This document shows, piece after piece, positions 2,199 to 18,861 of a stretch of 22,748 bases of DNA. The notes under the pieces are model-generated. The model was not told the DNA's origin. It did no database searches and worked only from the letters and a program-made list of their open reading frames with translations. Source of the DNA: a virus; IMG/VR virus record IMGVR_UViG_3300007734_000485, positions 1 through 22,748 of that record; one strand, written 5' to 3'. The position numbers and the translations under genes are program-made. How positions within the stretch are numbered: the first letter of the stretch is position 1; each line of letters opens with the position of its first letter.

Positions 2199-2212
2199 TT
2201 TTGACTGATACC
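2199..2212 (+). promoter_or_regulatory. TTTTGACTGATACC motif, copy 1
   Basis: Exact copy of the recurrent 14-mer, in the 33-nt gap between the large virion gene and the holin-like gene. It ends 8 nt before the ATG at 2221, and no Shine-Dalgarno sequence lies between. It may be a phage promoter or an mRNA signal (see findings). Confidence 0.7.
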
Positions 2213-2220
2213 AAATTCAA

Positions 2221-2394
2221 ATGATCGCACTACTTTACATATTGGATCGGCTGTCGGAGAACTCGACGTGGAGGGGAATAGTTTTGCTTTGCACGGCAGC
2301 GGGTTGCCAGTGGTCTCCAGAGTTCCAGAACCAAATCATCGCAGCGGGTCTCTCGATCATTGGGGTCATAAACGTGCTACGCAAAGGCAAATGA
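2221..2394 (+). CDS. Small membrane protein, putative holin
   Basis: 57 residues, beginning MIALLYILDRLSENSTWRG. Two short hydrophobic stretches (about residues 18-29 and 39-53) are separated by a polar turn, and the C-terminus is basic (RKGK). Small two-segment membrane proteins of this kind with an 'SENSTWRG' N-terminal region are found beside phage endolysins and are usually taken as holin-like proteins that permeabilise the inner membrane. It lies first in the lysis cassette, directly behind a TTTTGACTGATACC copy and without a ribosome binding site. The start is the only ATG in frame near the motif. The holin role rests on size, hydrophobicity and neighbours; it has not been shown. Confidence 0.6.
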   Translation: MIALLYILDRLSENSTWRGIVLLCTAAGCQWSPEFQNQIIAAGLSIIGVINVLRKGK

Positions 2395-2410
2395 CCAACC
2401 GTAATTTTCC

Positions 2411-2671
2411 ATGGGAACGGTGATGACACCGCGCTGGATCGCCGCAGGAATGATCCTCTTCGCCTTTGCCTGTCTGGTGATGGCGTTCTTGACTTCCTGC
2501 GTCAGCGTTCCAGTCCCGCCATTCGGTGAGCGTGTGGGCGAGATGGGGAGTCTGCAATTTTCGCTCGGCGTCAAATACCTTCCCGCAGTCCAACCAGAGC
2601 GACCCGGAGACGCCAACCTCGCATTCGCGTGGCAGAAATTCGGCGAAGCCAAAGCCCTCAAGGACAAATGA
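2411..2671 (+). CDS. Lysis-cassette lipoprotein (possible outer-membrane spanin)
   Basis: 86 residues from ATG 2411; an in-frame ATG at 2423 is equally possible and gives 82. The N-terminus has an arginine and then a hydrophobic core (residues 9-26) ending in a lipobox LTSC, so signal peptidase II cleavage and lipidation at the Cys are expected. The mature part is short and polar with an early proline-containing stretch (VPVPPFG). The stop overlaps the endolysin start by four bases (ATGA), so the two are translationally coupled. A small lipoprotein between holin and endolysin fits a Rz1-type o-spanin, which links to the outer membrane in Gram-negative lysis. No separate i-spanin is visible, so this is a tentative role. 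Confidence 0.6.
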   Translation: MGTVMTPRWIAAGMILFAFACLVMAFLTSCVSVPVPPFGERVGEMGSLQFSLGVKYLPAVQPERPGDANLAFAWQKFGEAKALKDK

Positions 2672-3183
2672 ACCACCTCCTCGCAGAGATCGCCGCATCG
2701 CAAGTCGGAGTCCGTGAAGTGGGCGGAAACAACAACGGCGCAGCGATCCGCAACTTTCAGAAAGCGACCAACCTCAAGCCTGCCGATTGGCCATGGTGTA
2801 GTGCGTTTGTTTGCTATTGCATTTCCGAGTGGCTCGACAAGCCCGGCGTCCGCGAGTGGCTCAACCTCCAATCCTCCACGCCGGAGGAATGGCGTCCCAA
2901 GACCGCGCTCGCCTACGGCATGCTCGACTGGGCCAAGGCCCGCCCGAAGACCACTATCATCCTCCACGACCGCGAGTGGGCAAAGCCGGGCGACATCGTG
3001 GTCTTCGACTTCAGTCATGTCGGCATCGTCGAATCCGACAGCGGATACCAGATCGTGACCATTGAGGGAAACACCAATGGGCGCGGCGAGCGAGACTCGG
3101 AATCGGGAGACGGGGTTTGGCGAAAGGTACGCCAGAAAACACTCGCCAGAAATTTCATCCGCATCCGCCCTGTGGCAGTTTGA
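2668..3183 (+). CDS. CHAP/NlpC-P60-type endolysin
   Basis: 171 residues from ATG 2668, chosen because it overlaps the previous stop (ATGA) and has AAGGA upstream; a longer frame begins at 2629 but adds no recognisable sequence. The PWCSAF box carries the presumed catalytic Cys44. Further on, WAKPGDIVVF leads into FSHVGIV with His117, then IEGNTNG with an acidic residue and Asn at about 133-135. This is the Cys-His-Asx/Asn order of CHAP-type peptidoglycan amidases or endopeptidases. There is no signal peptide, so it should depend on the holin for access to the wall. No separate cell-wall-binding domain is present. The cut bond cannot be told from sequence. Confidence 0.85.
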   Translation: MNHLLAEIAASQVGVREVGGNNNGAAIRNFQKATNLKPADWPWCSAFVCYCISEWLDKPGVREWLNLQSSTPEEWRPKTALAYGMLDWAKARPKTTIILHDREWAKPGDIVVFDFSHVGIVESDSGYQIVTIEGNTNGRGERDSESGDGVWRKVRQKTLARNFIRIRPVAV

Positions 3184-3201
3184 CTGCGCCAAACTCCCCT
3201 T

Positions 3202-3218
3202 TTCGACTAAAAGTCGAA
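3202..3218 (+). terminator. Hairpin behind the endolysin gene
   Basis: Perfect inverted repeat TTCGACT-AAA-AGTCGAA, 18 nt after the endolysin stop. There is no long T-run, so it is only a weak terminator candidate. The same TTTTCGACT...TCGAA pattern recurs at 3325-3343 in the tRNA anticodon arm, so it could instead be a recombinase-related site. Confidence 0.35.
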
Positions 3219-3274
3219 TTCTGTGTATGTAACTCATTGATCGGACTTTAGCAAGTCGTTGAAAATGCCCTTGA

Positions 3275-3294
3275 TGGACAACAATGGACAACGA
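3275..3294 (+). repeat. Left arm direct repeats, 2 x 10 bp
   Basis: TGGACAACAA followed by TGGACAACGA. They share GGACAAC with the right-arm repeats at 3495-3524, on the other side of the tRNA fragment. Confidence 0.65.
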
Positions 3295-3326
3295 AAGCGC
3301 AAAGCACTGCAAGCCAACGCCTGTTT

Positions 3327-3387
3327 TTCGACTCGAAATCGAACGTAGGGTAACCTACCGCGGGTTCGAATCCCGCCCCTTCCGCCA
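3327..3387 (+). pseudogene. 3' part of tRNA-Ser(CGA), att core
   Basis: Visible parts: anticodon stem TTCGA/TCGAA (3327-3331 with 3339-3343) around loop CTCGAAA with anticodon CGA at 3334-3336; a long variable arm GTAGG-GTAA-CCTAC (3345-3358), typical of serine tRNA; T arm GCGGG-TTCGAAT-CCCGC (3360-3376); acceptor 3' strand CCCTTCC, discriminator G and encoded CCA (3377-3387). The matching 5' acceptor GGAAGGG and a D arm are absent upstream, so the gene is 5'-truncated. This is the usual state of a tRNA segment carried by a phage that integrates into the 3' part of a host tRNA gene and restores it. Confidence 0.8.
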
Positions 3388-3388
3388 C

Positions 3389-3407
3389 CTCTAGACAGCG
3401 TCTAGAG
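3389..3407 (+). terminator. Hairpin directly behind the tRNA fragment
   Basis: Perfect 8-bp inverted repeat CTCTAGAC-AGC-GTCTAGAG, two bases after CCA. It could be the tRNA terminator carried along with the host segment. Only a short T-run follows. Confidence 0.45.
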
Positions 3408-3494
3408 CCTTTATCTAAGCACTCAGACGGACTTCCTTTATTGTTGCTTGATGTTTGTTCATTTTGTTTAATATTGGCTTGTAAGTGCAGCTTC

Positions 3495-3524
3495 CGGACA
3501 ACAGCGGACAACAGCGAGCAACAA
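3495..3524 (+). repeat. Right arm direct repeats, 3 x 10 bp
   Basis: CGGACAACAG, CGGACAACAG and CGAGCAACAA in tandem, then a decayed TAAACAATAT that runs into the integrase ATG. Because they abut the integrase start, integrase binding here may also repress its own gene (inference). Confidence 0.65.
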
Positions 3525-3532
3525 TAAACAAT

Positions 3533-4534
3533 ATGAACCTAGCCCCATTTATCGTGTCGCCTTACCCAGCCAGACCGAACTCGCCTTGGAAGATGGAGGT
3601 GAGGGCGGCTTTTGCAGGGAAAAAAATACGCAGATTCTTTGCTTCCGAACAGGAAGCTTTTGAGGAGGGGGAAAGGTTGGTGTCACTTATTCGCGAAAAA
3701 GGCACACAATCTTTGACGGAGCGAGAGGGGGTTACGGTATCGCAGGCCGCGACATTGTGGGCTAGGGGAGTGGATGGAAAAAGTAAAAGCCACAGAGATA
3801 AGGTTACAGCAACCCAGATCGCGCTTATGCGGCAATTCAAGTGTCGCATCGATGATGTGACCTCGATTGAGGTAGAGCGATGGGTGAAGGACATGGGTAA
3901 GACGGAGACGAGCCGGTCGATGTGGTTTCGTTATGCGCGGATGTTCTTTCGCTGGTGCTATCGCATGCGGTTCATTGACCGCTCGCCGCTCGATGGCGTT
4001 CGACCACCAAGAGCAACTCCGGGAAGGAATATTTTGACTGCTGAAAAAATGATATCCCTTCTCAAGGCTCCGATGCCGGACGATGTAAAGGCGCTTATCC
4101 TTTTGGGTGGGTTCGCGGGCCTGCGGACTATAGAGGTGTCTCGGATGAATTGGGAAGATATCGATGTGAAGACAAAGCAAATCTATATCCGAAAGGAAGT
4201 CTCCAAACAGCATGAAGGCATGCTGGAGCGGGTGGTCGATATGACTGAGCCGCTGATGAAGCGCAAAAAGTTTTTCGAGAAGAAAACAGGGCAGATCGTG
4301 AGCGGGTCGCTAGAGGCGCTCTACGAGAGAAGGAGGAAGGTTGTGTTGGCGTTGGGGTGGGAGGGGTGGCCCGACAATGCGATGCGGCATTCGTTCGCGA
4401 CTTATCATCTGGCACGTTGCGGCAATGCTGGTCTCACGGCATACCAGATGGGGCATACATCTCCAACGATGGTGCAACGAGTCTACGCTGTTCCCGCTGC
4501 CAGAGCGGATGAAAAGGCGTGGTGGAGGATTTAA
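3533..4534 (+). CDS. int: Tyrosine recombinase / phage integrase
   Basis: 333 residues from ATG 3533; an upstream GTG at 3485 would translate through the arm repeats and is unlikely. An N-terminal arm-binding and core-binding region (about 1-160) precedes the catalytic domain. Catalytic residues: Arg198 in GFAGLRTIE, Lys in KEVSKQ (about 221-225), Arg285 in DNAMRHSFAT, His308 in QMGHTS and nucleophile Tyr318 in QRVYAVP. The usual His of HxxR is Asn282, a variant I associate with integrases of this type. It catalyses site-specific integration and, with an excisionase, excision between attP and a tRNA-Ser gene. It lies directly beside attP and upstream of the regulatory switch. Confidence 0.93.
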   Translation: MNLAPFIVSPYPARPNSPWKMEVRAAFAGKKIRRFFASEQEAFEEGERLVSLIREKGTQSLTEREGVTVSQAATLWARGVDGKSKSHRDKVTATQIALMRQFKCRIDDVTSIEVERWVKDMGKTETSRSMWFRYARMFFRWCYRMRFIDRSPLDGVRPPRATPGRNILTAEKMISLLKAPMPDDVKALILLGGFAGLRTIEVSRMNWEDIDVKTKQIYIRKEVSKQHEGMLERVVDMTEPLMKRKKFFEKKTGQIVSGSLEALYERRRKVVLALGWEGWPDNAMRHSFATYHLARCGNAGLTAYQMGHTSPTMVQRVYAVPAARADEKAWWRI

Positions 4535-4537
4535 ATT

Positions 4538-4726
4538 ATGCCATACCAAGACAAGAAAACGCAGAAAAAATTCATGGCGCGGCAGTACAGGACGAAGTAC
4601 GCCACGGACCTTGCTTTCAAGAATTCCGAGGCGAAACGGAAGTCAGATTGGTATCAAAAGAATCGGGAGCGTCTCATTGCCAAAGTGCTGGAGAATCGGG
4701 CGAAGAAAGTGAAGGGTGCTTTGTGA
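4538..4726 (+). CDS. Small basic protein of unknown function
   Basis: 62 residues, strongly basic (many Lys and Arg), with a WYQKNRERL segment recalling the basic helical N-terminal part of some phage HNH-type proteins, but without an HNH core. The ATG is three bases after the integrase stop, so it is probably cotranscribed. Nucleic acid binding is plausible from charge alone. Confidence 0.55.
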   Translation: MPYQDKKTQKKFMARQYRTKYATDLAFKNSEAKRKSDWYQKNRERLIAKVLENRAKKVKGAL

Positions 4727-4735
4727 ATAAAAAGA

Positions 4736-4771
4736 ATTGCGGGCTAACAAAATTTTACCCCCCCCCGCAAT
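4736..4771 (+). terminator. Inverted repeat between convergent genes
   Basis: ATTGCGGG (4736-4743) pairs with CCCGCAAT (4764-4771) across a 20-nt loop that contains a TTTTA run and part of a run of nine C. It lies between the integrase operon and the convergent repressor-like gene, where a bidirectional terminator would be useful. Confidence 0.45.
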
Positions 4772-4801
4772 AGGGTTGGTTTGTTAGGTCAATGACTTTT
4801 C

Positions 4802-5101
4802 CTATCCAACCTTTCGGGAGGGCTTCTTCGCTTGAGTTAATGGCCCAGAACCGGAAGTCTCGGAGGCTGGCCGGATCACTACACCAGCATCCGACTTGGC
4901 TTTTCCCTCTTCTATTTCTTGAAAGTGCAAACGCCAAGCTTGGCGGATACATGTTCGGATGGCTTGCGATGGTGTGACATCGGCCGCATTAACTCTCATT
5001 TCATAAGCTATAATGCGGGAAATAATATCTCTGCACTCAGGGTCTAAAGACACTCCTGGCTTTGATACTTTTTCAGCATCTGTTTTTTTCGGACGACCCA
5101 T
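4802..5101 (-). CDS. Ribbon-helix-helix-type regulator, candidate repressor
   Basis: 99 residues from the minus-strand ATG at 5099-5101; the frame extends to 5176 but the upstream part covers the operators and reads poorly. The N-terminus is MGRPKKT, an AT-hook-like basic patch. Then comes a possible beta-strand (GVSLDPE), a helix (CRDIISRIIAYEM) and a second helix (PSQAIRTCIRQAW), the order of a ribbon-helix-helix DNA-binding fold, followed by a polar tail. It is the only well-supported leftward gene in the switch region and diverges from a second RHH gene at 5287 across GTGCAC palindromes. This suggests a lysogeny repressor or its antagonist. No Shine-Dalgarno sequence precedes it. Confidence 0.7.
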   Translation of the reverse strand: MGRPKKTDAEKVSKPGVSLDPECRDIISRIIAYEMRVNAADVTPSQAIRTCIRQAWRLHFQEIEEGKAKSDAGVVIRPASETSGSGPLTQAKKPSRKVG

Positions 5102-5123
5102 GATTTTGAAACTAAACACAGAA

Positions 5124-5160
5124 GGTGCACCAATGCAACTGATATTATTTACAGTGCACT
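5124..5160. promoter_or_regulatory. Operator pair on the leftward-gene side
   Basis: Two 8-bp palindromes, GGTGCACC (5124-5131) and AGTGCACT (5153-5160), lie within 60 bases of the leftward start. They share the GTGCAC core with the sites at 5259-5284. Confidence 0.55.
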
Positions 5161-5258
5161 TGAAAATAAATATCACCCCGCAACGCTAGTGTTCATGCGG
5201 ATGTCAATAAAAAACTTCATGGTAGGTAAACCCCCCATTGACTTTTTTTATTGATATT

Positions 5259-5284
5259 AGTGCACCAATATAAAAAAGTGCACT
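5259..5284. promoter_or_regulatory. Operator pair on the rightward-gene side
   Basis: AGTGCACC (5259-5266) and palindromic AGTGCACT (5277-5284), the latter two bases before the ATG at 5287. The surroundings are AT-rich, with TTGACT (5238-5243) and TATAAA (5269-5274) as possible promoter pieces, but the 25-bp spacing is not a standard promoter. Confidence 0.55.
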
Positions 5285-5286
5285 GC

Positions 5287-5448
5287 ATGACAGCAGCAAA
5301 CAGAAAACAAGGCGCGTGCTTCCCAGCGGAACTTTGGGAGGAAATCAAACGCAAGGCAGACACGGACAACATCACGCCAAGCAAAGTGATCGTCCAAGCC
5401 GTGCGTGAAATGGTGGAACGTAAAAACAAACGGAGGGCATCGAAATGA
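5287..5448 (+). CDS. Arc-like ribbon-helix-helix regulator
   Basis: 53 residues from ATG 5287; a longer frame from 5251 would run through the operators. The pattern is a beta-strand (GACFPAE), helix A (LWEEIKRKADTDN) and helix B (TPSKVIVQAVREMVERK) with a basic tail, close to the size and order of Arc/MetJ-type repressors, which bind DNA as dimers of dimers. The start lies immediately after an AGTGCACT palindrome, so it is probably autoregulated or controlled by the divergent gene. Its stop overlaps the next start (ATGA). It probably acts as the Cro-like partner in the lysis-lysogeny switch (inference). Confidence 0.75.
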   Translation: MTAANRKQGACFPAELWEEIKRKADTDNITPSKVIVQAVREMVERKNKRRASK

Positions 5449-5639
5449 TGATCACCGTCACGGAGGCCGCGCAGTACACGGGGTACTCGGAATTCGCGAT
5501 CCGCGAGTTTTGTCGCATGGGAAAATTCACTGCTGAGAAACCCCGTGGCAATCGGGGTGGGTGGTCGATACTCAAGCCTTCGTTGGAACAATGGTGGATG
5601 GCGAAGCGCCGGGCGACCACGAACAGGAGGGCGAAATGA
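5445..5639 (+). CDS. Excisionase-like winged-helix DNA-binding protein
   Basis: 64 residues. The sequence TVTEAAQYTGYSEFAIREFCRMGKF followed by GGWSILKPSLEQWW is the MerR-type/excisionase helix-turn-helix layout (ITxxEAAxxxGxSxxTIRRxxxxGxx...). A GGAGG lies 9 bases upstream, and start and previous stop overlap as ATGA. Such proteins bend attachment-site DNA to favour excision, which fits the integrase and attP 2 kb upstream. A role as a transcription regulator is the main alternative. Confidence 0.7.
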   Translation: MMITVTEAAQYTGYSEFAIREFCRMGKFTAEKPRGNRGGWSILKPSLEQWWMAKRRATTNRRAK

Positions 5640-5746
5640 GCGACCCCGCCTACGTCTGCCGATCCATCGGATACTTCCTCGATTTCCTTTGCTCCGTGGG
5701 ACCGGCGCTGGCGCTCGTCCTAGTGACATGGAGGGTGTCCAAATGA
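5636..5746 (+). CDS. Very small membrane protein
   Basis: 36 residues: a polar N-terminus, then one hydrophobic segment (about residues 12-32) and a short basic end. It has AGGAGG before the ATG and an ATGA overlap with the excisionase-like gene, so expression as part of the operon is likely. No function is evident. Confidence 0.5.
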   Translation: MSDPAYVCRSIGYFLDFLCSVGPALALVLVTWRVSK

Positions 5747-6051
5747 CAATTATTGGGACGGTTCCAAGGTCACTTGATACACCCATGGATGTTCAGCGTT
5801 TAATGGTGGCTGTAGCCACTTGGGGTCCAGAGGAAGGCGATGTGAGGGGATTTCTCCATCGTGCGTGTCTTGCCACTCCAGCACAAGCCAGAAGCAGTCT
5901 TCGTCGTATTGCAGCGGGGATCGACACATTTGAGTCTGCCCTTTGTGGGCCAGCGTGTGGAAGCACTCGTAAAGGGCATCTGGGTCGAACCAATCTGGCA
6001 GGATCATTGGGCAATGCTAACGAAGGAAGCACAGGAAGGAAGTCGAAATGA
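5743..6051 (+). CDS. Doubtful rightward ORF joining the operon
   Basis: 102 codons. In favour: GGAGG upstream and ATGA overlaps at both ends (with the 36-residue gene and with the gene at 6048). Against: the Gly/Arg/Ser-rich, motif-free sequence reads like an antisense shadow, and third codon positions are not GC-enriched, unlike neighbouring genes. The opposite strand carries a more protein-like frame (5750-6007). Confidence 0.25.
   Translation: MTIIGTVPRSLDTPMDVQRLMVAVATWGPEEGDVRGFLHRACLATPAQARSSLRRIAAGIDTFESALCGPACGSTRKGHLGRTNLAGSLGNANEGSTGRKSK
5750..6007 (-). CDS. Leftward Trp-rich hypothetical protein
   Basis: 85 residues of natural-looking composition: acidic, five Trp, segments such as CFWLVLEWQD and HPWVYQVTLE, with codon use favouring CTG, GAC, TTC and TAC. 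It ends 7 bases inside the neighbouring operon boundary. The start is fixed by an upstream stop; there is no ribosome binding site. It would be antisense to the early operon, so it may be a later insertion or have its own promoter. No family is recognised. Confidence 0.5.
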   Translation of the reverse strand: MILPDWFDPDALYECFHTLAHKGQTQMCRSPLQYDEDCFWLVLEWQDTHDGEIPSHRLPLDPKWLQPPLNAEHPWVYQVTLEPSQ

Positions 6052-6200
6052 GCGCCACGTTTGGCCTCGCTCTCGCGGTACTGACCCTCGGCTCCTGCTA
6101 TTCCAGCTATCGCTTGGGACAGGCAGACATTTTGGCGAGGTATCGACGCCACGCCGAGCGCAAACGCCGCTGGCGTGAATTTGAAGATTTCGAGGACTGA
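6048..6200 (+). CDS. Small membrane-anchored basic protein
   Basis: 50 residues: a hydrophobic N-terminal segment (about residues 4-17) and then a basic helix (ARYRRHAERKRRWREF) with an acidic end. AGGAAGGAAG lies upstream. The single-anchor-plus-basic-tail layout is common among phage orphan proteins. Function unknown. Confidence 0.5.
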   Translation: MSATFGLALAVLTLGSCYSSYRLGQADILARYRRHAERKRRWREFEDFED

Positions 6201-6208
6201 CCGTCCTC

Positions 6209-6553
6209 ACCACAAGAAAAGCGCCCTGACAGGGGCAAAACACAAGAAAACAAAAAATGAAACTAGCAACATGCAACTGCGCTGAGGTGAAAGATGAAAA
6301 CGGCAACAAATTGCCAGAAGTAGTCGGTCACAATTGTGACTACATCCGCGAGAGAAACAAACACCTCACTGAGGCTTCCAGCTTCGCTCAAATCGAACTC
6401 GATAAGACGGCACTGGAGACGCCAACCGAGAGGTCAGCATTCTTCAATAAAACATTCTCGGCAAAAATGACCGAGCTTTGTGCAGGCATCTAAATGAAAG
6501 CGACCCCGAAGGAGGGCAATCCAACGGGGCCAAGTCAAAACCACAAGAAAAGC
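6209..6553 (+). repeat. CACAAGAAAA leader repeats
   Basis: ACCACAAGAAAAGC occurs at 6209-6222 and again at 6540-6553, each shortly upstream of a start codon (6257 and 6566). A shorter CACAAGAAAAC lies at 6241-6251. Neither gene has a Shine-Dalgarno sequence. A stem GCCCT-GAC-AGGGGC follows the first copy. Confidence 0.5.
6257..6493 (+). CDS. Hypothetical small protein
   Basis: 78 residues with an N-terminal CNC and further Cys at residues 27 and 75, and a polar, helical middle. It sits immediately before the recombinase gene in the early operon. It has an A-rich upstream region instead of a ribosome binding site. No family is recognised. Confidence 0.6.
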   Translation: MKLATCNCAEVKDENGNKLPEVVGHNCDYIRERNKHLTEASSFAQIELDKTALETPTERSAFFNKTFSAKMTELCAGI

Positions 6554-6565
6554 AGTAATAACAAC

Positions 6566-7360
6566 ATGAGCAATACACAACTGACACAACAAGTCAACAC
6601 ACAAGTCGCACTTGGCGACATGCAGGTGATGGCCAACGCCATCGTGAAAAGCGGTCTCTTCGGCATGAAGACGCCAGACCAAGCCTTGGCGCTGATGATC
6701 GTGGCGACTGCCGAGGGGCGTCATCCGGGATCGGTGGCGAGCGACTACCACATTATACAAGGTCGCGCTTCGCTGAAGAGCGACTCGATGCTGGCGAGGT
6801 TCCAGCAGAGCGGCGGGCGGGTGGAGTGGCACGACCACACAAACGAGAAGGTATCCGCGACCTTCAGCCACCCTGCGGGCGGATCGCTCCGCATCGACTG
6901 GGATATGGCCCGCGCCAAGGCGGCAGGGCTGGGCGGAAAGGATAATTGGCGCTCGTATCCACGGCAGATGCTGCGGGCGCGGGTGATCTCGGAGGGGGTC
7001 CGTGCGACATTCCCTGCGGTCTTGAACGGGATGTATACGCCGGAGGAGGTTGGTGAGTTTGATGCGCCTAGAACAGCGCCACGCTCGGTGAAGTCCGAGC
7101 CGGCGGTGGTGGTCGAGCCTGTTGCAGTTCCTGCGACACCTATCATTGAGGCCGATGTGGTATCAATTGATACCTCATGGGCAGACGAGTTGGAGAAGCG
7201 CATTTTCGAGCATGAGCCGAAGGTGAATGCTTTTCTGCTGGCCAAGGGTCAGATCGCCGAGGGGCAGACCTTCCGCGACATCGCGGATGAGGGCTACCGC
7301 AACCGGGTGCTGTCGAACACGCCACGTTTCTTGGACGCAGTGCTGAAGGAGGTCGCATAA
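6566..7360 (+). CDS. RecT/Bet-type single-strand annealing protein
   Basis: 264 residues from ATG 6566. The frame also has an ATG at 6494, but the extra 24 residues are low-complexity and overlap the leader repeat. The N-terminal part has MANAIVKSGLFGMKTPDQALALMIVATAEGRHP broken by DYHIIQGRASLKSDSM and later NWRSYPRQMLRARVISEGVR, matching the RecT-like recombinases that coat and anneal single-stranded DNA. The C-terminal third (after an acidic Pro/Val linker) looks like a separate small helical domain. Its partner nuclease follows directly with an ATAATG overlap. Together they would support recombination-dependent replication and repair. Confidence 0.8.
   Translation: MSNTQLTQQVNTQVALGDMQVMANAIVKSGLFGMKTPDQALALMIVATAEGRHPGSVASDYHIIQGRASLKSDSMLARFQQSGGRVEWHDHTNEKVSATFSHPAGGSLRIDWDMARAKAAGLGGKDNWRSYPRQMLRARVISEGVRATFPAVLNGMYTPEEVGEFDAPRTAPRSVKSEPAVVVEPVAVPATPIIEADVVSIDTSWADELEKRIFEHEPKVNAFLLAKGQIAEGQTFRDIADEGYRNRVLSNTPRFLDAVLKEVA
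7159..7174. repeat. 16-bp perfect palindrome inside recT-like gene
   Basis: GGTATCAATTGATACC reads the same on both strands. Each half (TTGATACC) resembles the right part of the recurrent TTTTGACTGATACC motif. It lies in the linker-coding part of the gene. Confidence 0.5.
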
Positions 7361-8382: not shown

Positions 8383-8675
8383 GATCACTCTGGCCAGAAG
8401 AAGAGGAGTTGCGTGGTCGCGATGGGCAGGCGTGGGTGGAGGCGTTCTCAGTCGTTCCAGAGCACGTTCAGTCGGCGGCTAGGCGGATCGTGTGGTGGGA
8501 TTTCGTGTCGCTCCATACCATGGCGGATGCGATCCGGCGTGGATTCGGTGTCTTCAATCGCGCTGTCCGCGAGTATGGCGGAAGCGCCCCGACCAACGAG
8601 GAAATCGTGGATGCTCTAGTGGCGGTAGGCTACTCGCCAGAACGTGCTAAGAAACGAGTGGGAGGCGTAATATGA
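8379..8675 (+). CDS. Hypothetical protein of the replication operon
   Basis: 98 residues from the ATG that overlaps the nuclease stop (ATGA). It is acidic at the N-terminus (MRSLWPEEEEL), Trp-containing in the middle (RRIVWWDF), with a C-terminal helix-rich part ending SPERAKKRVGGVI. No known domain is recognised. The next gene overlaps it by four bases. Confidence 0.65.
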   Translation: MRSLWPEEEELRGRDGQAWVEAFSVVPEHVQSAARRIVWWDFVSLHTMADAIRRGFGVFNRAVREYGGSAPTNEEIVDALVAVGYSPERAKKRVGGVI

Positions 8676-10639: not shown

Positions 10640-10654
10640 AAATATCATAAATAC

Positions 10655-11035: not shown

Positions 11036-11049
11036 GCACCACAACAAAG

Positions 11050-11063
11050 TTTTGACTGATACC
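11050..11063 (+). promoter_or_regulatory. TTTTGACTGATACC motif, copy 2
   Basis: Exact copy, 14 nt after the stop at 11035 and 29 nt before the ATG at 11093. It marks the return from the AT-rich island to phage-type sequence. Confidence 0.7.
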
Positions 11064-11092
11064 AATCTCCCCAACATAAACAACCAAACCAC

Positions 11093-11563
11093 ATGACAAC
11101 ACACGAACTCGCAGAACAAACCAAATACGTCACCTCGGCAGGCAAATTCATTGCCAAGGTGAAGCAACCCGGCAACGGATGGCTGGGCAAGACGAAGACC
11201 GGCACGGATTTCATCCGTCTCCCGCTCCTCATTGACGATCCGGCGAGCGACCAGCACGGACGCGAAATCGTCTGGCAGGGATGGCTCTCGGAGAAGGCGG
11301 CAACACGGACGGCGAAGACCCTCGATGAGGCTTTTGGCCGCGAGTGGGACATCTCCTCACTCTCCTCTGGCAAGTCGCCATTCCTCAACCAGAAGTGCCG
11401 GATCACCATCGAAGCCGAGGAGGGAGAGGACGGCAAGGTGCGTCTGAAGGTGCGATGGCTCAACCCGCTGGAAGGGGCTGCGGAAACCCTTGCTCCAGAC
11501 CGCATCGCCACCCTCAACGAACGCCTCAAAATCGCCCGCAATGAAGAAGAAATCTCGTTCTAA
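11093..11563 (+). CDS. DUF669-like, probable ssDNA-binding protein
   Basis: 156 residues, rich in beta-type segments: GKFIAKVKQPGNGWLG, TGTDFIRLPLLIDD, HGREIVWQGWLSEKA and CRITIEAEEGEDGKVRLKVRWLNP. This resembles the DUF669-type phage proteins found beside recombination genes and thought to bind single-stranded DNA. The C-terminus ends in an acidic stretch and a final Phe (NEEEISF), a feature also seen in SSB proteins that recruit partners. A TTTTGACTGATACC copy lies upstream; there is no Shine-Dalgarno sequence. Confidence 0.65.
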   Translation: MTTHELAEQTKYVTSAGKFIAKVKQPGNGWLGKTKTGTDFIRLPLLIDDPASDQHGREIVWQGWLSEKAATRTAKTLDEAFGREWDISSLSSGKSPFLNQKCRITIEAEEGEDGKVRLKVRWLNPLEGAAETLAPDRIATLNERLKIARNEEEISF

Positions 11564-11738: not shown

Positions 11739-11740
11739 AT

Positions 11741-12629: not shown

Positions 12630-13045
12630 ACTGGACCCATGACCAACTCGAAAAGCTCGGATACAGACCCAACCCAGATGGCTCATACTCTCATTCTACA
12701 ACTGCCGGGCTACACAACCCCAAGCCTCAACCGCCTGCTCGGCCAGCACTGGACCCTCCTCCAAAAAGAAAAGAAACGCGCCCGCCTCGCACTGCTCTCA
12801 TCATTACGCGCTATGCCTGCCGACTCCTTGATGCCGACAATTATGCAGGCGGCTGTAAGCCACTTATCGATCAACTCCGCTACGCTCACCTCATCGAAGA
12901 TGACGACCCGGAAACCATCGAAATCACGTTCCGCCAAGCCAAGTGCAAAACGAAGGCCGAAGAAAAAACGACCATCCAAATAACGCGCAGCAGTGGGGAT
13001 TATAAAAGGGGGAAGACGAATCTTGTCAAGACTCGTTTTGACTGA
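12626..13045 (+). CDS. RusA-like Holliday junction resolvase, C-terminal half fused to a foreign N-terminus
   Basis: 139 residues in one frame. The start MNWTHDQLEKLGYRPNPDGSYS resembles a short N-terminal motif of small phage proteins, followed by a Pro/Lys/Arg-rich linker (about residues 30-55). From about residue 58 it matches RusA: ITRYACRLLDADNYAGGCKPLIDQLRYAHLIEDDDPETIEITFRQ, including the LDADN and EDDDP acidic residues that hold the metal. RusA cuts Holliday junctions, here probably clearing recombination products before packaging. The normal RusA N-terminus is missing from this frame but is found in another frame at 12678. The stop codon lies within the motif copy at 13036-13049. Confidence 0.65.
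   Translation: MNWTHDQLEKLGYRPNPDGSYSHSTTAGLHNPKPQPPARPALDPPPKRKETRPPRTALIITRYACRLLDADNYAGGCKPLIDQLRYAHLIEDDDPETIEITFRQAKCKTKAEEKTTIQITRSSGDYKRGKTNLVKTRFD
12678..12815 (+). other. RusA N-terminal half in a second frame
   Basis: From ATG 12678 the frame reads MAHTLILQLPGYTTPSLNRL followed by LGQHWTLLQKEKKRARLALLSSLRA. This is the RusA N-terminal pattern (beta-strand, PSLN, basic helix). It runs +1 relative to the frame of 12626-13045, so a -1 shift near 12765-12815 would join it to the RusA C-terminal half. The run CAAAAAGAAAAGAAA is a possible slip site, but no canonical X-XXY-YYZ heptamer is in phase. Confidence 0.5.
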
Positions 13046-13049
13046 TACC
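13036..13049 (+). promoter_or_regulatory. TTTTGACTGATACC motif, copy 3
   Basis: Exact copy. It overlaps the end of the RusA-like frame, supplying its TGA stop (13043-13045), and ends 8 nt before the small terminase ATG. Confidence 0.7.
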
Positions 13050-13057
13050 GAACGAAC

Positions 13058-13426
13058 ATGAAGATCAACCCCAAACAAGAAGCCTTCTGCCAAGCCTATG
13101 CGAGCGGGCTCTCAATTACGCAAGCTTACATCCGCGCCGGTTACTCCGAAAATGGAGCAGGACAGAGCGGTGAGAAATTACTGAAAAATGCTGATATCAC
13201 TAAGAGAGTGGAAGAACTCCGCTCCAAAATGGAGTCCAAGATGAGCTACAAGCGCGAGACCTACCTTGAAACACTTCGCGACCGCTTCATGGAAATGCCC
13301 CCCGAATCGGCAACGTGTGCGAAGTACGGCGAGATGCTGGCGAAGGCGATGGGATGGAATGAGCCAGAGAAGCTCGACATCGTCGGAGCGTTGGAAATCA
13401 ACCTCACCATCGGTGGCCAAAATTAA
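13058..13426 (+). CDS. terS: Terminase small subunit
   Basis: 122 residues. MKINPKQEAFCQAYASGLSITQAYIRAGYSENGA is the N-terminal helix-turn-helix of the Terminase_2 family, which recognises packaging DNA. A helical oligomerisation part follows. The end overlaps the large subunit start. The motif copy at 13036 lies directly upstream, with no ribosome binding site, so this is probably the first gene of a packaging transcript. Confidence 0.85.
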   Translation: MKINPKQEAFCQAYASGLSITQAYIRAGYSENGAGQSGEKLLKNADITKRVEELRSKMESKMSYKRETYLETLRDRFMEMPPESATCAKYGEMLAKAMGWNEPEKLDIVGALEINLTIGGQN

Positions 13427-14738
13427 CATCGCCATCGTGCCTCGCCCTCAGTTGGCGAGCTACCTGCACCGCACGCAACGCTGGGCGGTCATGGTCCTCC
13501 ACCGCCGCGCTGGGAAGTCGTTTGTTTGCATTCAAGACCTCATCGTGAAGGCGCTCCAGCATAAGCGCAGTGGGCCTCCACTCCGCTATGCCTATGTGGC
13601 TCCGACCCGCGAGCAAGCGAAGGACATCGCGTGGAAGTACCTTGTGCAGTTCACCTCGCAGATACCCGGCGTGGTCATCAACAAGGCCGATCTCGCGATC
13701 ACCTTTCACAATGGCGCGACCATCCGACTCTACTCTGGCGAGGCGTTCGAGCGCCTGCGCGGAATTTATTTGGATGGCGTGGTTATGGACGAGGCCGCCG
13801 ATCTCGATCCGGCGGCATGGGACAATGTCATTCGGCCCACGCTCACCGACTACAATGGCTGGGCGACATGGGTCGGCACGCCGAAGGGCAGGAATCTCTT
13901 CTGGAAGCAATGGAACCGCGCCTGCGCGGACAGCGAGTGGTTTTCGCTCATGCAACGGGCCAGCGAGTCGGGGATCATTCCTGCCAGCGAACTCGATGAC
14001 ATCCGCAAAGGCACGACCGAGAATGCCTATCAGCAGGAATACGAGTGCAGTTTCAACGTGGGCCGTCCGGGTGCGATCTATGTGCGAAGCCTCGAAAAGG
14101 CCCGCGCTGAGAAGCGGGTGACCAATGACATCCTGTGGTTCAAGGAACTTCCGACATACACCTCATGGGATGTGGGCGCTCCACTCAACCAGAAGGTGTG
14201 GATATGGCAGATGGTCGGTGACCGCATCAATTACATCGAGGCATTGAGCGGTTCCGATGAGTGCGCTACGCCAGCGGACTGGGCGGCACGGCTCAAGGCC
14301 AAGCAGTATGGCTACGGAGGGCATTTCATCCCACACGATGCCGCAGCGGAGGTCGGTGGACTCTGGCAGGAGGCGCTGGGCCGCAGCGGGCTAACTGGCG
14401 TCTGTCCTGTGCCGCGACAGATATCGGTATGGGATGGGATCAATCTCGCCAACGATGCGTTCCCTCGCATCTCGATCAATGAGTCCGGGTGCGCCGAAGG
14501 ACTTGAGGCGCTCGATGCCTACCATGCCAAGGAGGAGCGCGATGGGGTCACCATCAAAGATGTGCCGGTGCATGACTGGTCATCGCACTACGCCGATGCG
14601 TTCAGCCTCTCGCACCAAGCCATCAAGCGCGGGATGGTGATTGACCGCAGCGCGATCCCACGGAAGGCCGAGCGAGGTGAGGCGACTAGAGTGGTGGCAG
14701 GGTTCCGAGGGGGTGGATTCGGAAAGGTGAGACGATAG
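13413..14738 (+). CDS. terL: Terminase large subunit
   Basis: 441 residues from GTG 13413, which overlaps the small-subunit gene by 14 bases; the frame further upstream is a shadow of that gene. ATPase: Walker A HRRAGKS (30-36), Walker B VVMDEA (123-128) and coupling region WVGTPKG (153-159). Nuclease: Asp253 in SWDVG, Asp309 in PHDAA, and Asp388 or Asp395 in VHDWSSHYADAF, an RNase H-like metal site. The protein pumps DNA into the prohead and cuts concatemers. Its length and domain order are normal for the family. Confidence 0.92.
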   Translation: MAKINIAIVPRPQLASYLHRTQRWAVMVLHRRAGKSFVCIQDLIVKALQHKRSGPPLRYAYVAPTREQAKDIAWKYLVQFTSQIPGVVINKADLAITFHNGATIRLYSGEAFERLRGIYLDGVVMDEAADLDPAAWDNVIRPTLTDYNGWATWVGTPKGRNLFWKQWNRACADSEWFSLMQRASESGIIPASELDDIRKGTTENAYQQEYECSFNVGRPGAIYVRSLEKARAEKRVTNDILWFKELPTYTSWDVGAPLNQKVWIWQMVGDRINYIEALSGSDECATPADWAARLKAKQYGYGGHFIPHDAAAEVGGLWQEALGRSGLTGVCPVPRQISVWDGINLANDAFPRISINESGCAEGLEALDAYHAKEERDGVTIKDVPVHDWSSHYADAFSLSHQAIKRGMVIDRSAIPRKAERGEATRVVAGFRGGGFGKVRR

Positions 14739-14768
14739 GGGGACCCAAGAACGATTTAATAAGTCCCC
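14739..14768 (+). terminator. Inverted repeat behind terL
   Basis: GGGGAC (14739-14744) and GTCCCC (14763-14768) can pair across an AT-rich 18-nt loop, directly after the terL stop and before the next start. There is no T-run beyond TT. Confidence 0.3.
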
Positions 14769-14774
14769 TTGCCA

Positions 14775-15170
14775 ATGAATCGCCAAATCGAACTTCAAAT
14801 CCTCGACCTCTACCGGCGCTACCCGCAGCCGCGATCCTTCGCCGAGGAGGTCGAACTCACCGCATGGAATGGTGTCGTCATCAACACCGAGGATTTCTTT
14901 ATGCTCGCCCGTCCGGTGGACATCCACGACCCGGAGGAACGCTGGCGCGATGCCGCCTGCACCTACCATAGGTTGTGTCAGAACTGCTGGCTGATCACAA
15001 TATATTGTGGTATCAGTCAAAATAATCCTTGCCATTTTGCCCCTTACCCCCTTCCTTTGATCGCATGGAGTCGTCGAAATCGACCGCTCCGAATCTACGA
15101 AACCAGCAAAATCCAACCACGATGCGACTCATTGACCACCAAGCCAACCCCATCCTTTCGCCTGTCCTAG
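14775..15170 (+). CDS. Hypothetical protein between terminase and portal; C-terminal half doubtful
   Basis: 131 residues from ATG 14775. The first 75 residues (IELQILDLYRRYPQPRSFAEEVELTAW and EDFFMLARPVDIHDPEERWRDAA) look like a real small phage protein. After about nt 15000 the frame passes through a palindrome and an inverted motif copy and becomes Pro/Arg-rich without character; it then overlaps the next gene by about 49 bases. The original stop may have been lost by an insertion. No family is assigned. Confidence 0.5.
   Translation: MNRQIELQILDLYRRYPQPRSFAEEVELTAWNGVVINTEDFFMLARPVDIHDPEERWRDAACTYHRLCQNCWLITIYCGISQNNPCHFAPYPLPLIAWSRRNRPLRIYETSKIQPRCDSLTTKPTPSFRLS
14996..15022 (-). promoter_or_regulatory. 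Inverted TTTTGACTGATACC copy joined to a 14-bp palindrome
   Basis: The complement of the exact motif lies at 15009-15022. It abuts CACAATATATTGTG (14996-15009), a perfect palindrome. CTGAT (14991-14995) and ATCAG (15012-15016) extend the stem with a 2-nt bulge, so one arm of the hairpin consists of motif sequence. It is the only copy in this orientation. Confidence 0.6.
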
Positions 15171-15577
15171 CATGGTTCGGAGGTGGAGCAAAGGGACCGA
15201 GTGCGGCAGAAAAGAAAGCTGCCGCTGATCAGACTGCTGCCGGAGAGGCTCGCGCAGCCAAGCAATCCGCTATGATGAAGGAGCAGATGGTCATGCAAGG
15301 GCAGCAGGCCGCTGCACAAAAGGCCGCACAGGAAAAGCAACTGGAGCAAATGCGCGTGGAGCGTGAAGCCGCACTGGCAGAACAAAAGCGGTTGGCTGAA
15401 TTGTCGCAGGCGTCCATCGAAGCCAATCGACCCTCACCCGGCGCTCAAGTGGATACCAATGCACCCGATGACCAAGCTGCCGCTGCGCAGCGCCGTAGGG
15501 GAATGCGTAAAAGCATCCTTGCCGGAGAGAGCAATCAATCGGGATATGATCCCAACAAGCGCACCACTCTTGGCTAG
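15122..15577 (+). CDS. Ala/Gln-rich structural protein upstream of portal
   Basis: 151 residues from ATG 15122; in-frame starts at 15029 and 15065 exist but add poor sequence. A short hydrophobic or Gly-rich N-terminal part (LAWFGGG) is followed by a long Ala/Gln/Lys/Glu helix (about 25-105) likely to form a coiled coil, then a C-terminal motif QRRRGMRKSILAGE. A similar Gly-x-x-Ser/Thr-Ile-Leu end is common in small head proteins of podovirus-like phages. The stop is immediately followed by a motif copy and the portal gene. A virion role is inferred from this. Confidence 0.65.
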   Translation: MRLIDHQANPILSPVLAWFGGGAKGPSAAEKKAAADQTAAGEARAAKQSAMMKEQMVMQGQQAAAQKAAQEKQLEQMRVEREAALAEQKRLAELSQASIEANRPSPGAQVDTNAPDDQAAAAQRRRGMRKSILAGESNQSGYDPNKRTTLG

Positions 15578-15591
15578 TTTTGACTGATACC
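15578..15591 (+). promoter_or_regulatory. TTTTGACTGATACC motif, copy 5
   Basis: Exact copy filling nearly the whole gap: it starts the base after the stop at 15577 and ends one base before the portal ATG at 15593, leaving no room for a ribosome binding site. Confidence 0.75.
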
Positions 15592-15592
15592 G

Positions 15593-17251
15593 ATGAACGG
15601 CAATAACCCCGAACTCGCGGACAAGGTCATTCAGCGTCATGCTGAGTTGGTCCATCAGCGTGCGACTTGGGAGTCACTCTGGGAGGACATTGCGAAGTAT
15701 GTGATGCCTCGCAAGGCGTCGATGTTCACTCAGACGACATCGCCATCCACGGATGATGAGTCGCAACTCTTCGACGCAACTGCGGTGCGGGCGAACATGA
15801 TCTTGGCCAATGGTCAACTCTCATGGATGACCCCACTCGAAAGCCGGTGGTTCTCACTGGAACCTCCGAAGGCCATGGAGTCTGAGGATGAGGTAGAGCA
15901 ATGGTTCAAGCGTTGCACCGAGGTCATGCAGGCTGAACTTTCGCGCAGTAATTTCTACACCGAAATCCACGAACTCTACTTGGACCGAGGATGCTTCGGG
16001 ACCGCAGCGATTCTTGTCGAAGGGGGAAAGAACAACTCGCTCAACTTCACCAAGCTCGACATGGGAAGCTTTGCGATCTCCGAGGACGACGAGGGATATG
16101 TGGACACGCTCTCCCGCGAGTACGAGGTCACGGCTCGGCAGGCCGCGCTCAAGTTCGGCATCGAGAACCTCACCGAGGCGATGCGAAAGGATTTAGAGAA
16201 GCCCAACTCAAATAAGAAATTCACCTGCATCCACCTCATATCTCCTCGCGGACCGGGTGAGATTGAGGATGGCAAGCGCGATGGGGCCAACAAACCCTAC
16301 GCCTCTGTCTATGTCGAGAAGGCGACCAAGCATGTCTTCCTCAAATCGGGCTTCGATGAGCAACCGTTCTTCGTCACCCGCTATCTCAAGTGGAAGAACA
16401 GCGAGTGCTACGGCTACTCCCCAAGCTGGACCGCGCTGCCGGAGTGCAAGCAACTCAACTTTCTTGAGAAGCAACTCGATTCTCTGGCAGAGATTCACGC
16501 CTTCCCTCGCATCCTCATCCCTGCGGGGTTCGATGGCGACATCGACCTGCGTGCGGGAGGCGTGACGTATTTCGATCCCAACAACCCCGGAGCGACCCCG
16601 AAGGAGTGGGGAACAGGCGGGCGCTACGACATCGGCGTCGAGCGGGCTGAGAGCAAGCGCAAGGCGATCAATGAGGCATTCCATGTGGACCTCTTCCAGA
16701 TGTTCGCTCAACTCCAGAAGCAGATGACCGCCCGCGAAGTCGCGGAACGTGCGAGCGAAAAGCTCATCCAATTTTCTCCGACCTTCGCTCGTCTCACGAC
16801 CGAGCTATTCAATCCGCTCCTTCGCCGGGTATTCGCGATCCTTGCCCGTGCTGGCAAGTTCCCGCCGCCACCAGAGGCTTTCCAGATGACCGGCATGGTT
16901 CCCGATCCAGAGGTCGCCTACAACAGCAGGATCGCACTTGCGATCAAGTCGCTCGAAAACGCCGCTTTCATCCGCACCAGCGAGATGCTCCTGCCCTTTG
17001 CCAATCTTCGCCCGGAGATGCTGGACAACTTTGACTTTGACGAGATCACCCGCGACATGGCCCGCAACGATGGCCTGCCAGCCCGCTGGCTCATGGATGA
17101 GGAAATGGTCGCACAGACCCGCGCCCAGCGAGCGCAGGCCGCACAAGCTCAAGCGCAGGCGCAGCAGATGGAACAGGCCGCAGCCATCGGCAAGGCCGGT
17201 AGTGTGAAGGCAGACTCGGCCATCGCTCAAATGCTCCCCGGTATGGCATGA
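15593..17251 (+). CDS. Portal (head-to-tail connector) protein
   Basis: 552 residues, the usual size for T7-type connector proteins. Recognisable segments: WESLWEDIAKYVMPRKA near the N-terminus, WMTPLESRWFSL, a central LKWKNSECYGYSPSWTALPECKQLNFLEKQ, and QMTAREVAERASEKLIQFSPTFARL followed by ELFNPLLRRVFAILARAGK toward the C-terminus; the tail is Gln/Ala-rich. Portals form the dodecameric ring through which DNA is packaged and ejected. The start sits one base after a motif copy, which fixes it well. Confidence 0.9.
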   Translation: MNGNNPELADKVIQRHAELVHQRATWESLWEDIAKYVMPRKASMFTQTTSPSTDDESQLFDATAVRANMILANGQLSWMTPLESRWFSLEPPKAMESEDEVEQWFKRCTEVMQAELSRSNFYTEIHELYLDRGCFGTAAILVEGGKNNSLNFTKLDMGSFAISEDDEGYVDTLSREYEVTARQAALKFGIENLTEAMRKDLEKPNSNKKFTCIHLISPRGPGEIEDGKRDGANKPYASVYVEKATKHVFLKSGFDEQPFFVTRYLKWKNSECYGYSPSWTALPECKQLNFLEKQLDSLAEIHAFPRILIPAGFDGDIDLRAGGVTYFDPNNPGATPKEWGTGGRYDIGVERAESKRKAINEAFHVDLFQMFAQLQKQMTAREVAERASEKLIQFSPTFARLTTELFNPLLRRVFAILARAGKFPPPPEAFQMTGMVPDPEVAYNSRIALAIKSLENAAFIRTSEMLLPFANLRPEMLDNFDFDEITRDMARNDGLPARWLMDEEMVAQTRAQRAQAAQAQAQAQQMEQAAAIGKAGSVKADSAIAQMLPGMA

Positions 17252-17544
17252 TGGCTCCCGAAGACAAAGCCAGTGCCCTTCAGCGCGAGCGTGAGCGCCA
17301 GCGCCTCACCAACGCCTACCACCGTGTATTCAATACGAAGGATGGCGCACTGATTATCGCGGACATCAAGCAGCAGTTCGCGACCGACTCGCAGGTCTTC
17401 CTGCCCGGCTACGATTTCAACCCCGTGGTCGCCGCGCTCCGCGATGGCCAGCGAGGCGTCCTCATACACATCGAGACCATGCTTCGCCGCCCCGTCATCG
17501 CGGATGGCGACATCGAAACTCCCAAACGCAAAGTCAAAAAATGA
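17248..17544 (+). CDS. Bbp19-like small virion protein
   Basis: 98 residues overlapping the portal stop. The RLTNAYHRVFNTKDGALIIADIKQQF...FLPGYDFNPVVAALRDGQRGVLIHIETML layout matches the small Bbp19-type proteins found next to portals of podovirus-like phages. They are virion-associated, with no proven biochemical role known to me. Tail is basic (RKVKK). Confidence 0.65.
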   Translation: MMAPEDKASALQRERERQRLTNAYHRVFNTKDGALIIADIKQQFATDSQVFLPGYDFNPVVAALRDGQRGVLIHIETMLRRPVIADGDIETPKRKVKK

Positions 17545-17705
17545 GCAAAAAAAATACCGACATCCCACCTCGCCCCGATATGGACCCCATGCTTGGAGAC
17601 AAGACCATCGCGCTTGTCGAATGGCTTCGCGACTACGCCCCAGAGGAATTCCAAAAGACCTACGCCGGTCGTGAGACCCATCTCGGTTACCACCCCGAAG
17701 AGTAG
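17541..17705 (+). CDS. Small hypothetical late protein
   Basis: 54 residues, beginning MSKKNTDIPPRPDMDPMLGDKT. ATGA overlap with the Bbp19-like gene. The centre (IALVEWLRDYAPEEFQKTYAGRETHLGYHP) is helical and acidic. It ends 5 bases before a motif copy. Unknown role; position suggests a head or assembly protein. Confidence 0.6.
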   Translation: MSKKNTDIPPRPDMDPMLGDKTIALVEWLRDYAPEEFQKTYAGRETHLGYHPEE

Positions 17706-17710
17706 GTCTG

Positions 17711-17724
17711 TTTTGACTGATACC
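17711..17724 (+). promoter_or_regulatory. TTTTGACTGATACC motif, copy 6
   Basis: Exact copy between the stop at 17705 and the scaffold ATG at 17729, four bases before the start and with no ribosome binding site. Confidence 0.75.
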
Positions 17725-17728
17725 ATTT

Positions 17729-18589
17729 ATGGAAGACACCACCGACACCTCCTCCGAGCAGAGTTTGCTCGACACAGGAGCCGCCACCAACGCCGAAGCG
17801 CCTAGCGCAACGGAGACAACAACCGCAACGCAACACACAGGCTACGTCAACCCGGACGGCACATTTGCCGAGGGGTGGGCGAATAACCTCCCGGAGGATT
17901 CCGCCGCCTACAAGGACACGCTCTCGAAATACAAGAGCGTTCCCGACATGGCCAAGGCGCTCGCGAATGCGAATGCGCTGATCGGAAAGAAGCTCGGTGT
18001 ACCGAATGAAAAATCTTCGCCCGAAGAGGTCGCGGCATTTCGTCGTTCGCTCGGGGTTCCCGATTCCATTGAAGAGTACAAGTTCGCTCCCGATGCGCTC
18101 CCAGAGGGCATGACGTGGGATGACAACAACGTCAAAAACTACGCTGAGATCGCGCACAAGCACAACATCCCGCCATCCGCGATGAAGGCGCTCGTCACCG
18201 AGCACGCGAAGATGGAGCACTTCAAAATGCAGGGCATGCAGGCGCAGATCGAGAAGCAGCATGTCGAGGCGGTCAACACCCTCAAGAAGGAGTGGGGTGG
18301 GGAGTTTGACAAGAACATCGGCCTCGCCAAGCAAGCGGCCAAGCTCGCGGGCGTGAATGCCAACTCACAGGGATTCGCAGACCCCGAAGTCGTGCGGGGC
18401 TTTGTGCGCATGGCTCAAATGATGAGCGAGGACAAGGTCGGACGCTCGATGAGTGGCTCCGAGTTTATGACCGGCTCGGCACGCGCCAAGGACATCATGA
18501 GTAATCCCGACAACTCTTGGCACAAGCGTTACATGGAGGGCGACCGCGAGGCAGCGACCCTGGTGACCGGCTTGCTCAAGCAGGGATGA
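17729..18589 (+). CDS. Capsid scaffolding/assembly protein
   Basis: 286 residues, highly charged, with a Thr/Ser/Glu/Ala-rich unstructured N-terminus (1-40) followed by a WANNLPEDSAAYKDTLSKYKSVPDMAKALANANALIGKK segment and long helices, without Cys. These are the marks of phage scaffolding proteins, and the position directly before the major capsid gene fits. It would form a temporary inner core for prohead assembly. Confidence 0.8.
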   Translation: MEDTTDTSSEQSLLDTGAATNAEAPSATETTTATQHTGYVNPDGTFAEGWANNLPEDSAAYKDTLSKYKSVPDMAKALANANALIGKKLGVPNEKSSPEEVAAFRRSLGVPDSIEEYKFAPDALPEGMTWDDNNVKNYAEIAHKHNIPPSAMKALVTEHAKMEHFKMQGMQAQIEKQHVEAVNTLKKEWGGEFDKNIGLAKQAAKLAGVNANSQGFADPEVVRGFVRMAQMMSEDKVGRSMSGSEFMTGSARAKDIMSNPDNSWHKRYMEGDREAATLVTGLLKQG

Positions 18590-18595
18590 CAATTT

Positions 18596-18666
18596 CGCGG
18601 GGTGGAGAAAAGGTATCTTGCAAGGCCCATACCCTTGAGTTCCGGGTTCGACTCCCGGCCCCGCAA
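18596..18666 (+). tRNA. Initiator-type tRNA, anticodon CAU
   Basis: 71 nt without CCA; all arms close. Acceptor CGCGGGG (18596-18602) pairs with CCCCGC (18659-18664) and leaves the C1xA72 mismatch that marks bacterial initiator tRNAs. D stem GAGA/TCTT (18605-18608 with 18616-18619) has the A11:U24 pair, a second initiator mark. Anticodon stem CAAGG/CCTTG (18621-18625, 18633-18637) encloses loop CCCATAC with CAT at 18628-18630. T arm CCGGG-TTCGACT-CCCGG (18642-18658). Two of the three expected G:C pairs at 29-31/39-41 are kept (A29:U41 is not). Position 33 is C instead of nearly universal U. CCA is not encoded beyond its first C. It sits in the late operon between scaffold and capsid. It could be functional, or a decayed copy of a host tRNA-fMet. 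Confidence 0.8.
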
Positions 18667-18682
18667 CTTTTCTGAAAATATG

Positions 18683-18696
18683 TTTTGACTGATACT
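18683..18696 (+). promoter_or_regulatory. TTTTGACTGATACT, near copy 7
   Basis: One mismatch at the last base. It lies 16 nt downstream of the tRNA, with no ORF of its own after it; the next gene (capsid) has its own copy at 18823. Confidence 0.65.
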
Positions 18697-18746
18697 CAAT
18701 CGGGCTGAAACGTAAGACCGTCAGAGCAGACACCTCCTCGTTGAGC

Positions 18747-18808
18747 CTGCTCCCTAATACCCGCCGCCGCTGACCCCACACGGGACACTCGGAAAGCGAA
18801 GGGAGCAG
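18747..18808 (+). repeat. Inverted repeat in the capsid leader
   Basis: CTGCTCCC (18747-18754) and GGGAGCAG (18801-18808) can pair. The stretch between the two motif copies (18697-18822) has no convincing ORF and could be a structured leader or small RNA. Confidence 0.35.
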
Positions 18809-18822
18809 AACAAATCCATCAG

Positions 18823-18836
18823 TTTCGACTGATACC
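18823..18836 (+). promoter_or_regulatory. TTTCGACTGATACC, near copy 8
   Basis: One mismatch (T to C at position 4). It lies 25 nt before the capsid ATG, which also has AAAGGA at a normal distance. Confidence 0.65.
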
Positions 18837-18861
18837 AACCCAACTCAACCAAAGGAATAAA

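Follow-up and report, generated by a model that had tools for sequence, protein, structure and literature searches.

Promoters of T7-like single-subunit RNA polymerases are about 20 bp long, highly invariant and directional, and they are dispersed in the podovirus genome, within genes and ahead of those for terminase, scaffold and capsid. Cluster K mycobacteriophages carry start-associated sequences (SAS), GGGATAGGAGCCC, whose function is unexplained (PMC3203893), and the stoperators of cluster A mycobacteriophages (L5, TipsytheTRex) are asymmetric sites whose orientation is tied to transcription and whose clade-specific versions shift at all sites (PMC9283540, PMC6550527). We analysed a motif of lake phages that resembles all three. 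Like SAS, it is an asymmetric element of 13–15 bp with about 9–19 copies, mostly just before start codons and absent from the host; the copies share an orientation, apart from a lone reverse copy in some genomes. Its asymmetry, orientation and clade-specific versions recall stoperators, and its dispersal before late genes and inside genes recalls T7-like promoters. The sequences of SAS and of the motif are unrelated, however: SAS contain AGGAG, the Shine-Dalgarno core, which the motif lacks, and they are restricted to non-structural genes, whereas the lake-phage copies favour late genes. The motif further differs from SAS in its codon-constrained mid-gene copies, its copy after a tRNA gene and its clade-wide concerted switch; the single reverse SAS of the cluster K phage Anaya has a mismatch and an unremarkable context. 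Stoperators belong to a different host phylum and gene context, and, compared with T7-like promoters, the motif is 15 bp long and no single-subunit RNA polymerase gene was seen.

The window, by which we mean the whole 22,748-base stretch of DNA analysed, comes from a temperate podovirus-like genome with an integrase gene at 3485–4534. It holds six exact copies of the 14-mer TTTTGACTGATACC and two with one mismatch (motif consensus (A/T)(G/A)TTTYGACTGATACC), seven of the eight running rightward along with the genes. At ≤3 mismatches, 100 dinucleotide shuffles gave 1.3 matches on average and never more than 4, none reaching 8, so the preliminary description was right that the recurrence exceeds chance, as it was about the position of every copy. 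The first exact copy (2199–2212, + strand) heads the lysis module, 8 nt before the ATG at 2221 of a 57-aa ORF, at a junction shared with relatives. The second (11050–11063, +) is separated by an A/C-rich leader of 29 nt from the ORF at 11093. The third (13036–13049, +) includes the stop codon of the RusA-like gene upstream and lies 8 nt before the ATG (13058) of the terminase small subunit gene (PF03592). Two more stand 1 nt before the portal ATG at 15593 (15578–15591, +; PF12236) and 4 nt before the ATG at 17729 of a gene in the scaffold position (17711–17724, +); in clade B and in the outgroup contig G013, this last site falls within the small gene upstream, in the part coding for the N-terminus. 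The sole reverse copy (15009–15022, −) lies within a small ORF after TerL. One one-mismatch copy (18683–18696, +) begins the capsid leader, 15 nt after tRNA-Met (18596–18667), and the other, a T4C variant (18823–18836, +) with the inverted repeat ATCAGT-TTCG-ACTGAT, is 25 nt before the ATG (18862) of the capsid gene (PF19821), so that the two together bracket the leader.

The gaps of 1–29 nt described earlier therefore stand (8, 29, 8, 1 and 4 nt), and the gene names hold in part. Pfam confirmed terminase small subunit, portal and capsid; 'holin' and 'DUF669' found no Pfam match (E≤0.001), and the scaffold name has the gene's position as its sole basis. Both near copies had been placed before the capsid gene, which is correct for 18823; the copy at 18683 is not start-proximal, being 165 nt from the capsid ATG. 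The leader between tRNA-Met and capsid (18697–18861) has a conserved GCAGACACCTCC...GGAGCCTGC and GGGAGC and folds better than shuffles (z −3.0) with weak covariation. It had no match in Rfam, where the tRNA was the only credible match.

A search of related phages found about 90 IMG/VR relatives with the motif at the same junctions, including nearly all of 80 portal-related contigs; these relatives are metagenomic contigs and not independent samples. Long or complete relatives (~38 kb) have 9–12 copies each, one of them reversed. Copies are either near-exact or missing, with no tail of weak sites; the tolerated variants are T4C (the commonest forward variant), A6G and C14T, and the motif stays constant while the sequence flanking it varies. 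All gene-associated copies are oriented with transcription. The preliminary description had reasoned that relatives keeping the genes without the motif would speak against a function; within the phage group the motif is retained, with few single-junction losses. Outside it, no comparable repeat was found in HTVC010P, BcepC6B, Limnohabitans phage DC33 or ctVRi840, and among annotated phages the portal has only distant relatives (Pelagibacter HTVC010P group, 34%). Matches in L120, L131, L138, L152, L190 and L203 were set aside as chance, these contigs having no homology to the window's proteins; L274, a match to the clade-B pattern, was likewise taken as chance. Assemblies of the relatives measure ~37.7 kb, three with 127-nt terminal repeats. 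In the window, positions 19837–22505 hold two neighbouring genes made up of a ~183-aa module akin to a tail adaptor, repeated in tandem about five times.

The association with start codons, which holds at the window junctions, is not strict, since relatives carry mid-gene copies in the genes for an internal virion protein and the polyvalent protein. In the former, seven distinct genes, with protein identity as low as 40%, all keep the codons GTT TTG GCT/ACT GAT ACC, and neighbouring conserved codons drift, unlike those of the motif. The copy in the polyvalent gene shows the same codon constraint. The codons of the reverse copy, GGT ATC AGT CAA AAT, are invariant in 66–67 of 67 sequences, in an ORF that evolves slowly overall and whose adjacent codons CCT and TGC are equally fixed. 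Contigs G003 and L179 retain the reverse copy though its ORF is deleted. From the fixed codons of the internal virion gene and this survival, the sequence evidence indicates that the motif is a nucleic-acid signal and not a by-product of coding. The polyvalent protein itself (window 124–2187; L089 2937–11324) has 2.8–3.1 thousand aa with ART-PolyVal and LPD3 domains, and NYSIG linkers recur at its domain joints.

Mid-gene copies bear on the two RNA-level options of the preliminary description, a translation signal replacing Shine-Dalgarno and an RNA processing site. A motif acting in mRNA, as a substitute for Shine-Dalgarno or as a target of cleavage or binding, would suit the many copies 1–30 nt before an ATG, at genes mostly without Shine-Dalgarno. 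In the window, early genes mostly have a Shine-Dalgarno sequence and late genes mostly do not, with or without the motif; as late genes without the motif also go without Shine-Dalgarno, the motif does not stand in for it. The ATG can be anywhere between 0 and about 30 nt away, and partial host 16S, which lacks its 3' end, contained no complement. The codon-constrained mid-gene copies, the post-tRNA copy and the reverse copy argue against a translation signal, and processing is disfavoured by the mid-gene copies and by a reverse copy that switched along with the forward ones (below). An RNA-level role of either kind is, in our judgement, highly improbable.

Copies inside genes could instead be short homologies kept at gene and domain joints, letting phage recombination swap modules. 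The domain joint of RecT in G001 falls on a motif variant (VSADT), the polyvalent-gene copies sit at domain joints (VSTDTNYSIG), and in L179 and G003 the sequence has been replaced on one side of the motif. Independent loci, however, need no common orientation, identical direct repeats favour deletions, and a concerted two-base switch with one copy reversed is unexpected from allelic recombination; we consider a module boundary very unlikely. The RecT genes of L089 (15056–15901) and the window (6494–7360) have a common C-terminal part and different N-terminal domains, and in the window the joint is on a palindrome, GGTATCAATTGATACC (7159–7174).

In a sister clade, B, whose portal is ~76–77% identical to that of the window, every copy examined, the reverse one included, reads TCTTGACTGACACC, and the old version is absent. 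Clade B is known from incomplete genomes, five contigs having been found through an outgroup portal and more by pattern search; 23 of 23 distinct contexts carry TCTTGACTGACACC, with the same two changes at the TerS, reverse, portal, p54 and post-tRNA sites. In another clade-B contig two copies are exact and a third is mismatched, and in some contigs of the clade the portal has no preceding copy. No contig holds both versions. In a portal tree of 97 sequences clade B (support 0.999) falls within a larger group, and the outgroup of that group, G013, carries the old version; portal scans found no outgroup closer than ~75% portal identity. A concerted switch of all examined copies implies a single reader acting in trans, and almost certainly one trans-acting factor would read every copy, with the reverse copy belonging to the set. 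The two versions, TTTTGACTGATACC and TCTTGACTGACACC, amount to a natural specificity swap with which that reader could be sought.

The single reverse copy makes an antisense idea attractive. It puts GGUAUCAGUCAAAA in the rightward transcript, the exact complement of the forward copies, which could pair with the tagged mRNAs in trans or in cis. Nine of ten long relatives have one reverse copy at ≤1 mismatch and the tenth has one at 2 mismatches; this copy switched with the forward copies in clade B; cluster K1 mycobacteriophages also have one reverse SAS (PMC3203893); and RNA guidance would account for a sequence that stays frozen although no reader protein is conserved. Several clade-A genomes nevertheless have altered reverse copies (TTTTGAAAGATACC, AATTGACTGATACC, TTTCGACTGATACC) with forward copies unchanged, T4C breaks the pairing, and antisense covariation was sought in clade A and not found. 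We regard RNA-guided control as unlikely. Its boldest form is quite unlikely: the reverse copy would be the seed of a phage antisense RNA that pairs with every tagged late mRNA, the 'reader' would be the inverted tag itself, and cluster K SAS might be a second instance.

The motif is confined to the non-early part of the genome. In ten long clade-A relatives, none of 102 copies at ≤1 mismatch lies in the early segment, which runs from integrase to helicase loader and makes up 15–22% of the genome. As the preliminary description had stated, TTGAC is not followed by a −10 hexamer at 16–18 nt: across seven junction classes, TANNNT stands at the required offset in ≤4% of contexts. The motif thus does not supply a sigma-70 −35/−10 pair at 16–18 nt spacing. 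Promoter-like sites were no more frequent than in shuffles, and no partner element is conserved at a fixed spacing from the motif. At most junctions the leader from motif to ATG is rich in A and C and poor in G.

Our preferred reading, to which we give a probability of about 0.4, is that one transcription factor, encoded by the phage and acting in trans, recognises the motif in DNA, most likely as a late-promoter core. This reading draws on the late confinement, the orientation, the dispersal both within genes and ahead of those for packaging and head, the doubling at the capsid and the short A/C-rich leaders. Of the three options raised earlier, the one with the most support is a compact phage promoter recognised by a phage factor, given the concerted clade switch, the non-early confinement, the prevailing orientation and the absence from hosts; the element is probably a promoter, though it may be a regulatory site of another kind. 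We infer that the motif is read at the DNA level, that the factor is encoded by the phage and that it activates rather than represses. The factor would mark the non-early genome, namely packaging, portal, scaffold, capsid, internal virion proteins, lysis and one replication-associated gene. An early gene product would recruit host RNA polymerase to the motif and transcription would begin just downstream, giving transcripts with short A/C-rich leaders or none, and output would be highest for the capsid gene, which has tandem copies ahead of it. Three findings count against a promoter. At the portal junction only 1–3 nt lie between motif and ATG, so that a promoter with a normal −10-to-start distance would start inside the gene; there is no fixed-spacing partner element; and no RNA polymerase or sigma factor was recognised. 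The ORF inventory of the complete relative G001 contained no ORF that fits either, and a search with PF00940 (single-subunit RNA polymerase) gave no match in six relatives, its controls being silent too.

The strongest rival is an operator of the stoperator type, at which a phage repressor would block late-region elongation or initiation in the lysogen in an orientation-dependent manner, as happens in cluster A mycobacteriophages. Stoperators are typified by their orientation and their clade-specific versions, and both the joint shift (PMC6550527) and the orientation dependence (PMC9283540) are documented. The lake phages, too, have many asymmetric sites of 13–15 bp in intergenic gaps in one orientation (seven of eight in the window, all but one in relatives), the motif holds a −35-like TTGAC, and the phage has an integrase and a tRNA attP. 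Stoperators, however, are also found at the early promoter and the repressor locus, whereas the early and lysogeny-control segment of the ten clade-A relatives, where repressor sites matter most, has no copies, though clade-B contig G022 has a one-mismatch copy adjoining the gene of a 62-aa protein. The divergent control region has its own repeats, four GTGCAC hexamers (5125–5283) between a leftward ORF (4802–5176) and a rightward ribbon-helix-helix-like gene, which are probably the operators of the real lysogeny switch. Ribbon-helix-helix-like regulators there vary among relatives and the motif does not, and no two-domain immunity repressor conserved with the motif was recognised by Pfam, PHROGs or conservation. 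A stoperator-type operator is thus a possible but doubtful reading.

Returning to a late activator, two DNA-binding-like proteins are present in 10 of 10 long clade-A relatives: HTH_17 and a basic protein of 62 aa (4538–4726, +). The latter, which is well conserved in clade A and has diverged in clade B, is a candidate reader only. AlphaFold predicts three helices (pLDDT 88, pTM 0.47), and the protein had no match in Pfam or Foldseek-PDB. Its clade-B gene is immediately preceded by a one-mismatch copy (contig G022; L412 13281–13320), a hint of autoregulation. The HTH_17 excisionase-like protein (5445–5639) is an unlikely reader, since its recognition helix changes between two types while the motif is constant. 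Ribbon-helix-helix proteins were rejected as too variable among relatives.

The 3' part of tRNA-Ser adjoining the integrase (3332–3384) matched only four MAGs in the genome-contig database, all Verrucomicrobiota and including Terrimicrobiaceae, Spartobacteria and Chthoniobacter. A contig belonging to this phage group is present in one of these MAGs as well, and there the motif occupies the same two junctions. These matches point to a freshwater Verrucomicrobiota host. A portal-based host search of the same database gave no match, and the exact motif was absent from host genomes except on phage-like contigs. The attP segment is tRNA-Ser(CGA) in the window (3332–3384), G001, G005 and G006, and tRNA-Leu-like in G002 and G004 (near 23364 in G004), so that close relatives integrate at different tRNAs.

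If our reading is right, abundant uncultured phages of freshwater Verrucomicrobiota run their late genes from a compact element without a recognisable promoter or an RNA polymerase of their own, and some small protein (or RNA) of the phage has to redirect host transcription. The motif may then also shed light on the cluster K start-associated sequences, which have long lacked an explanation.
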